Source: Opitutales bacterium (lineage in GTDB: Bacteria > Verrucomicrobiota > Verrucomicrobiia > Opitutales > Intestinicryptomonadaceae). From it: a DNA stretch of 64,000 nt. Of this stretch, positions 56,765 through 57,743 are shown one piece after another. The stretch is taken from the NCBI GenBank assembly GCA_015061945.1, contig SUVP01000004.1:1-64000 (forward strand), given 5' to 3'. Position numbers and translations under genes: made by a program. Positions within the stretch are counted from its first letter, which is position 1, and each line of letters opens with the position of its first letter. Below the pieces are notes generated by a model, which saw only the letters and a list, made by a program, of their open reading frames with translations, had not been told where the DNA came from and made no database searches.

Positions 56765-56933
56765 AGTCGTTTCCTGTTTACTAAAAACAACTCGATAACC
56801 GAAGGTTTCCATAGAAAAATGAAACTAATACAACGAATGGCTTATGGTTATAAAAACTTCCAAAATTATAGATTAAGGGTATTAGTCCTATGCGGTATAT
56901 TTCATTAAAATCCACTCTCTTTGGAGTTGACCC
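56765..56933 (+). mobile_element. IS transposase tail, degraded (ISL3-like)
   Basis: The frame 56765-56908 encodes the last 47 residues of a transposase: NNSITEGFHRKMKLIQRMAY, then GYKNFQNYRLRVLVLCG. This matches the T-E-G-x-x-K-x-K...R-x-x-Y-G-x-x-N-F-x-N-Y-R pattern at the end of ISL3-family transposases. A stop precedes it and the rest of the gene is missing. GGAGTTGACCC at 56923-56933 may be the right-hand inverted-repeat end; the left end is not found. The element cannot move by itself. Confidence 0.7.
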
Positions 56934-57212
56934 TTAAAAATAACCTTCTAATTCAAGCACAGAATTTCTCACTTCACAGAAAGACGATACTTTAATTACT
57001 TATCCTTCTTTTTTGCATCATTAGATGAATCCGATGCGTACACGCTATTACCATCCGATTCGCCAACGAGCAAAGCAATATTTGTAGTGCAACAGAAATC
57101 CGCAAGCGAGCCATTGCAAAGCAATGCGATGAGAAAACAGAACAAGCCACGATTATAGTCGTGGCGGTCAACGTCAGGAGGAACGAAGTTCCGAAGTGCA
57201 GACTGCGTCTGC
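56934..57212. repeat. palindrome-rich, gene-poor stretch
   Basis: No convincing gene. Short hairpins crowd this part: CATTGCAAAGCAATG (57112-57126), GCCACGA/TCGTGGC (57146-57164), GGAACGAAGTTCC (57180-57192) and GCAGACTGCGTCTGC (57198-57212). On the minus strand, about 57000-57150 stays open and ends in a hydrophilic SNDAKKKDK tail, which could be the end of a lost gene. Loop sequences such as GAAG and TGCG recur in the repeats next to it. Confidence 0.45.
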
Positions 57213-57310
57213 TTGTGTTCGCTTCGCTCGTTCGAGTTCGCCACACGCCACAAAAAAACGCAACCCTTACGGATTGCGTTTTTAAAGTGGCGGGATGGAC
57301 GAGACTCGAA
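57213..57310 (-). repeat. 98-bp direct repeat, distal copy (tRNA-Asp 3' end plus terminator)
   Basis: Nearly identical to 57591-57689: one substitution and one T fewer. It contains a full copy of the tRNA terminator (57252-57283) and the last 23 nt of tRNA-Asp including CCA (57288-57310), but not the rest of the tRNA. This is how a tRNA-anchored attachment site or a local duplication looks. Confidence 0.8.
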
Positions 57311-57590
57311 TTGAACTCGCTCGCACAGTAGTGCTCGTCTCGGCACTCGCTACGCTCGGCTCTTTGCTACGCAAAGCTTCCCCCAAAAGCTTGCTACGCA
57401 ACTTTTGTGTTGAACTCGCTCGCACAGTAGTGCTCGTCTCGCCCTTTGGGTAAATTGCTTCGCAATTTATTCTTCCCAAAAGCTTGCTACACAACTTTTG
57501 TGTTGAACTCGCTCGCACAGTAGTGCTCGTCTCGCCCTTCGGGTAAATTGCTTCGCAATTTATTCTTCCCAAAAGCTTGCTACGCAACTT
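57311..57590. repeat. tandem repeat of about 93 bp, three units
   Basis: Units begin at 57311, 57410 and 57503 with the same 32-bp start (TTGAACTCGCTCGCACAGTA and onward). Units two and three are nearly identical over 93 bp; the first differs in its second half. Each holds small palindromes such as AAATTGCTTCGCAATTT and AAAGCTTGCTACGCAACTTT. The array is framed by the two 98-bp repeats. Confidence 0.85.
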
Positions 57591-57689
57591 TTGTGTTCGC
57601 TTCGCTCGTTCGAGCTCGCCACACGCCACAAAAAAACGCAACCCTTACGGATTGCGTTTTTTAAAGTGGCGGGATGGACGAGACTCGAA
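57591..57689 (-). repeat. 99-bp direct repeat, tRNA-proximal copy
   Basis: Partner of 57213-57310, spaced by 378 bp. It includes the genuine tRNA-Asp terminator and the 3' end of the intact gene. Confidence 0.8.
57631..57662 (-). terminator. terminator of tRNA-Asp
   Basis: On the minus strand AAAAAACGCAATCC pairs with GGGTTGCGTTTTTT, followed by T-run, 5 nt after the tRNA 3' end. A second copy at 57252-57283 belongs to the distal repeat. Confidence 0.88.
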
Positions 57690-57743
57690 CTCGCGACCTC
57701 CTGCGTGACAGGCAGGCGTTCTAACCAACTGAACTACCACCCC
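57667..57743 (-). tRNA. tRNA-Asp (anticodon GTC)
   Basis: A 77-nt gene that folds as a normal tRNA: acceptor stem GGGGTGG with CCATCCC (one G-U pair), discriminator G and encoded CCA. The anticodon arm is CCTGC-CTGTCAC-GCAGG with GTC at the anticodon, and the T loop is TTCGAGT. GTC reads Asp codons. It is flanked by its own promoter and terminator. Confidence 0.97.

Follow-up and report, generated by a model that had tools for sequence, protein, structure and literature searches.

The repeats that follow the tRNA-Asp gene in the window (the whole analysed stretch of 64,000 nucleotides) very probably represent an array of tRNA-linked repeats (TLRs) of the type found behind tyrT and tyrV of Escherichia coli and known in Rfam as RtT, here in a divergent form of Opitutia (Verrucomicrobiota). 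This is a known, poorly understood kind of repeat and the phylum is new for it in this work. TLRs were first described in 1978 and, by the account of a 2021 paper (PMC8144298), were without known function until that paper reported binding of Hfq and CsrA by the three rRNA-linked ones. In the open literature that was searched TLRs are treated in gammaproteobacteria. Verrucomicrobiota of gut and rumen have the same layout, even to the closing helix and the change in the inverted T-arm, which means that this kind of repeat is old, or is spreading, or arises repeatedly. What surprises is the depth of layout conservation together with the differences in occupancy from tRNA to tRNA, and since related genomes contain both empty and occupied sites the origin of TLRs becomes testable.

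Layout of the array behind tRNA-Asp

On the strand of the tRNA the order is tRNA-Asp, T1, D', X1, X2, X3, D, T2 and a truncated next unit, with the following positions in the window:

57667..57743, minus strand: intact tRNA-Asp(GTC) gene with encoded CCA (ARAGORN; Rfam RF00005, 70.7 bits)
57630..57666, minus strand: T1, a terminator-like hairpin (AAAAAACGCAATCC-GTAA-GGGTTGCGTTTTTTT) directly 3' of tRNA-Asp (direct reading; inverted-repeat listing)
57596..57629, minus strand: D', which repeats the acceptor/T-arm of tRNA-Asp imperfectly and in inverted orientation (GTGGCGTGTGGCGAGCTCGAACGAGCG...), followed by a small hairpin (inverted match to its own tRNA first of 48; pairs with D in the predicted fold)
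57503..57595, minus strand: X1, a 93-bp core unit of the AT subtype with start CACAAAAG and end GCGAGTTCAA (repeat analysis)
57410..57502, minus strand: X2, a 93-bp core unit of the AT subtype with 98% identity to X1 (repeat analysis)
57311..57409, minus strand: X3, a 99-bp core unit of the GC subtype that also occurs at tRNA-Gln and tRNA-Leu (94% identity to the tRNA-Gln copy)
57288..57310, minus strand: D, a second copy of the last 23 nt of tRNA-Asp (100% identity to 57667-57689)
57252..57287, minus strand: T2, the terminator duplicate (repeat comparison)
57213..57251, minus strand: truncated next unit, consisting of a second D' and the first five bases of X (repeat comparison)

T1 was called by direct reading together with the inverted repeat and is absent from the list of a simple terminator scanner; a terminator of the same type stands 3' of tRNA-Asp in the relative G001. 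The block 57213-57310 (98 nt), composed of the last 23 nt of tRNA-Asp, the terminator and about 39 nt past the terminator, is found again at 57591-57689 (99 nt) with 98% identity, one gap and a start-to-start distance of 378 bp, in agreement with the earlier note on this DNA, which had described the terminator and tRNA end as a 98-bp block occurring twice. The three units of about 93 bp which that note had placed between the copies are present in this number, with two of them being 93 bp long and the third being a 99-bp unit of the other subtype. Also the T-arm-like piece it had seen in the array unit was recovered, namely as the unit end GCGAGTTCAA on the tRNA strand. The two copies of the tRNA end enclose array units and no cargo.

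The window contains two tandem arrays, of which the one at tRNA-Asp is by far the stronger (score 418 versus 55), and cores nearly identical to its own occur at five further sites of the genome, every one of them the 3' end of a stable RNA. Therefore, this repeat is more than a product of chance.

On its far side the array is adjoined by a second hairpin repeat family (window 57100-57212; CCATTGCAAAGCAATGCGATGAGAAAACAG...GCCACGATTATAGTCGTGGC...GGAACGAAGTTCC...GCAGACTGCGTCTGC) that is numerous between the genes of this genome (C1:294.8-299 kb, C2:38-41 kb) and has one copy directly 3' of tRNA-Leu(TAA). A fragment of an ISL3-type insertion sequence is located at 56777-56933 and related ISL3 elements are found directly after tRNA terminators in several relatives.

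Occupied and empty sites in the genome and its relatives

In the genome of the window (a 2.5-Mb assembly in 15 contigs) 48 tRNAs were scored. Searched genome-wide with the core model, it yields nine matches, all of them 3' of the genes for tRNA-Asp, tRNA-Gln(CTG), tRNA-Ser(GCT), tRNA-Leu(TAA) or 5S rRNA, with one to three cores per locus. At each of the four core-bearing tRNAs the terminator is followed by the tRNA's own 3' end in inverted, imperfect form and the core by a direct copy of it, and for Asp, Gln, Ser and Leu both the direct and the inverted copy rank the own tRNA first of 48. This means that the genome search proposed in the earlier note, for the repeat near other tRNA genes, was successful at tRNA-Gln, -Ser and -Leu as well as at 5S, and its idea of a repeat family expanding by way of tRNA ends is borne out by cores behind other tRNA and 5S genes with the own 3' end duplicated, as in the TLRs of E. 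coli. Its suggestion that the repeat was born from tRNA sequence holds for D' and D, whose sequence is derived or copied from the 3' end of the tRNA, but not for the hairpin core. In the array at tRNA-Asp two core subtypes stand together that are also present singly at other tRNAs, which suggests from the sequences that cores were moved or copied between loci.

Apart from these four, the inverted copy gives the own tRNA rank one among the 48 solely at a tRNA-Met, where no core is present. A piece of the terminator is repeated after this gene (L038, G000:C4:242061-242134) and 12 nt of its own 3' end recur there in inverted form, perhaps as a relic.

Named relatives of this genome belong to Opitutia (Verrucomicrobiota), e.g., Puniceicoccaceae bacterium Marseille-Q1082. 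Among 19 genomes of the family eight contain the core and 11 gave no match. Occupied sites in the relatives comprise:

G009: tRNA-Leu(TAG), His, Gln(CTG) and Val(TAC)
G015: tRNA-Pro(TGG), an Arg tRNA and 5S
G001: tRNA-Ala
G010 and G018: 5S

One plan (tRNA, T1, D', one or more cores, D, T2) is followed at 11 tRNA loci in four genomes and also at 5S genes in several. The comparison of the locus among relatives, likewise proposed earlier, revealed that tRNA-Asp has no such array in the relatives examined and mostly a plain terminator. Cores located off RNA genes are found 3' of protein genes in G017 and G018, and G001 and G017 possess longer dispersed repeats that contain a core. The dispersed repeats of G001 (L155, L160, L164) number eight, are about 320 bp long and include a part that resembles the core. 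The tRNA-Gln(CTG) gene has no encoded CCA in both element-carrying genomes, whereas CCA is encoded in four of the five element-free copies examined (L002, L219, L222-L226). The core pattern occurs, as far as named genomes are concerned, in the Opitutia group and in three isolated records of other phyla, and it has no match in viral contigs. Phage or plasmid origin was considered and rejected, as phage and plasmid records gave no match to the array.

Two further ideas were abandoned. The array of G001 had been taken to have lost its tRNA, but tRNA-Ala sits 1.4 kb upstream, separated from the array by an ISL3 insertion (L203, G001:C1, 1250-2600). Terminator identity as proof of duplication in place is a weak argument because the terminators after one and the same tRNA differ between species. 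Another common terminator-containing repeat (AAAGAGCGAACTGTGTTGGACACAGCTCGCTCTTT, then about 200 bp) is located 3' of Pro tRNAs in different genera (L167, L181, L183).

Fold, putative product and spread of the repeat

The first hairpin of the core shows 18 distinct inner sequences among 24 copies, nearly all of them self-complementary. Among the distinct hairpins of the tRNA strand 16 have G..A loops and one has a T..C loop (shuffled sequences: mean 1.3 G..A), and this strand bias suggests that the relevant form is the tRNA-sense strand when folded. Across 12 aligned units from different tRNAs the closing helix between D' and D as well as the inner hairpins covary and none of 500 shuffles reaches the covariation score; since D varies with the tRNA, the covariation of D' with D arises partly from the copying itself. 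The RNA D'-X1-X2-X3-D of tRNA-Asp is predicted to fold into a single domain closed by D' and D (z = -4.6). D' is imperfect at several loci, and in nine of 11 tRNA loci it shows the same change in the T-loop complement, with GAGAA replacing TCGAA.

From the fold, the covariation and the literature on E. coli it is likely that read-through of T1 gives rise to an RNA of the form D'-X(n)-D. According to the folding model and by analogy this RNA would constitute one domain closed by the D'-D helix that mimics the acceptor/T minihelix of a tRNA, and it may be trimmed like a tRNA 3' end or be ended by T2. Its amount would then follow the transcription of tRNA and rRNA. In rrnB of E. coli T1 stops 87% of the transcripts, and the RNA between T1 and T2 stems from read-through, is processed and is bound by Hfq and CsrA (PMC8144298); by analogy to rrnB the array of tRNA-Asp may provide an RNA with a tRNA-like 3' end. 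As to its growth, a core would arrive at the 3' end of a stable RNA, where its own end GAGTTCAA resembles the T-loop GAGTTCGA, and tandem duplication, taking place between this 3' end of the tRNA and its copy, would then probably enlarge the array.

The alternative that survives best is an active non-autonomous mobile element, in which the core is moved by some enzyme acting on the folded single strand and is directed to tRNA T-loops and the 3' ends of stable RNAs. It concerns the spread of the repeat and is thus compatible with its being a TLR. The patchy presence (eight of 19 family genomes), the occupation of different tRNAs in different species, the two core subtypes within one array, the strong strand bias of the hairpin loops and the cores found off RNA genes and in dispersed repeats all speak for mobility. 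On the other hand, there is no Y1 transposase in the family, a reverse transcriptase is present in one genome only, no target-site duplication was recognised and no autonomous copy was seen; a search for Y2 transposases gave no match, and neither did its positive control. None of the families of Y1 transposases, reverse transcriptases and tyrosine recombinases tracks the repeats among the family genomes; tyrosine recombinases occur in 18 of 19 of them regardless of whether the repeat was found. We therefore regard active mobility as possible, yet doubtful. The more general proposal that TLRs are a mobile non-autonomous folded-strand element of at least two distant phyla, which settles at the 3' ends of stable RNAs and rewrites D' and D for each tRNA or 5S host, seems to us slightly less probable still.

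Neutral template switching or slippage has to be considered next. Replication folding back at the terminator palindrome would leave inverted and direct copies of the tRNA end that have no function. Indeed, the inverted copy begins right after this palindrome, arrays end in truncated units and each unit derives from its own locus, but neither the core common to different loci and genomes nor the compensated stems are explained in this way, which renders such an origin unlikely.

Duplicated tRNA ends also recall the attachment sites of integrases, and the earlier note had offered an att scar of a lost element. In this reading an integrase-type element would have inserted at the 3' end of tRNA-Asp, supplying a new tRNA end and terminator, before its loss left a remnant between attL and attR. 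The window locus has in common with integrase att duplications their classic mark, an intact tRNA together with a displaced copy of its 3' end farther downstream. In G015 the displaced tRNA-Pro end is followed by a terminator equal to that of the uninterrupted tRNA-Pro of G009, and a different terminator separates tRNA-Pro from the core. Moreover, one relative (G009) carries an intact gene for a 343-aa integrase that ends about 60 bp from its tRNA-Leu(TAG) array (L207, G009:C11, 2355-3386). Both observations make it possible that TLRs come into contact with integrated elements at tRNA ends. At the window locus, however, the contig has no integrase closer than 133 kb and the copies enclose no cargo, relatives have tRNA-Asp sites with a plain terminator instead of an array, and one core is used at many tRNAs and 5S genes, which is beyond the reach of a single attP. 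Among the integrase loci examined solely that of tRNA-Leu in G009 sits at an array, and the TLRs of E. coli share the layout without any element. An att scar, one of the two readings of the earlier note, is consequently not supported and very improbable. Least credible of all are REP/BIME-like repeats of the RAYT type, since in spite of their being dispersed hairpin-rich repeats between genes, with rtT-like similarity reported inside enterobacterial BIMEs (PMC2965389), PF01797 (Y1/RAYT) was found in 0 of 19 family genomes by a search that was positive in 8 genomes of other families, and REP elements do not have RNA-gene-specific ends such as D and D', which are particular to the tRNA.

Comparison with the tRNA- and rRNA-linked repeats of Escherichia coli

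The comparison with the TLRs of E. coli was made in both directions. In E. coli K-12 tyrV has 3.1 downstream units of 178 bp, each closing with the last 19 nt of tRNA-Tyr, and copies corresponding to D are found at +166, +344 and +522. Its D' (GGGGAAGGATGAGAAGC) shows the same GATGAGAA change as the verrucomicrobial D'. The RtT model of Rfam (RF00391) marks the tyrV units and matches the unit behind tRNA-Pro of G015 over its full length with 41.3 bits (E 8.5e-5), which is the best verrucomicrobial score and lies below the gathering cut-off of 45 bits; weaker matches concern the units of tRNA-Gln (25.9 bits) and tRNA-Arg, and the tRNA-Asp copy of the window has no match to this model. As no verrucomicrobial copy reaches the cut-off, the window locus is not formally filed under RF00391. 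Conversely, the model R2, constructed from verrucomicrobial units only, recovers the three tyrV copies full length (E about 1e-8). It does not find the TLRs of argQ/V/Y/Z, lysV and rrnB of E. coli and thus architecture is the main argument for homology to the TLRs in general. In this respect lysV, whose terminator is duplicated too, agrees in its order and carries CCCGAAGGGCGAG, and in rrnB 5S, T1, hairpins, the 5S 3' end and T2 follow each other.

In E. coli 22 TLRs are known at ten loci, each of them terminating with 18-19 bp from the tRNA or rRNA gene that precedes it, and the definition used goes back to Egan & Landy and Rudd (PMC8144298). The verrucomicrobial repeats agree with it in the copy of the 3' end of their own gene (23 of 23 nt at tRNA-Asp), in their site immediately 3' of a tRNA or rRNA gene (nine of nine in the genome of the window, though not exclusively in relatives) and in copy number (one to three cores compared with one to five copies per locus). 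With RtT they share the predicted helix in which the tRNA-derived 3' part pairs with the 5' part and closes the domain, in addition to the recovery of three tyrV copies by the model of the new units.

Taken together, the 178-bp repeats of tyrT/tyrV (rttR) and the verrucomicrobial repeats both lie directly 3' of a tRNA or 5S gene and end in a copy of its 3' end. They occur in one to five units and have an inverted T-arm with GATGAGAA, hairpins with GNA loops, the motif CCCGAAGGGCGA and a closing helix of D' with D. The verrucomicrobial forms differ in belonging to another phylum and in a core that scores below the Rfam cut-off; furthermore, their cores can form tandem arrays that lack the tRNA piece, as with the 93-bp units, and in relatives are present off RNA genes too. 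The second known counterparts are the small RNAs RrA, RrB and RrF located between T1 and T2 of rrnA, rrnB and rrnD of E. coli (PMC8144298). There as well the 3' end of 5S is repeated between two terminators, together with GTTGCGAAGCAAC and hairpins of the CCC-loop-GGG type, and the 5S-linked copies of Verrucomicrobiota correspond to them. The latter contain other cores, in some cases with an inverted 5S segment.
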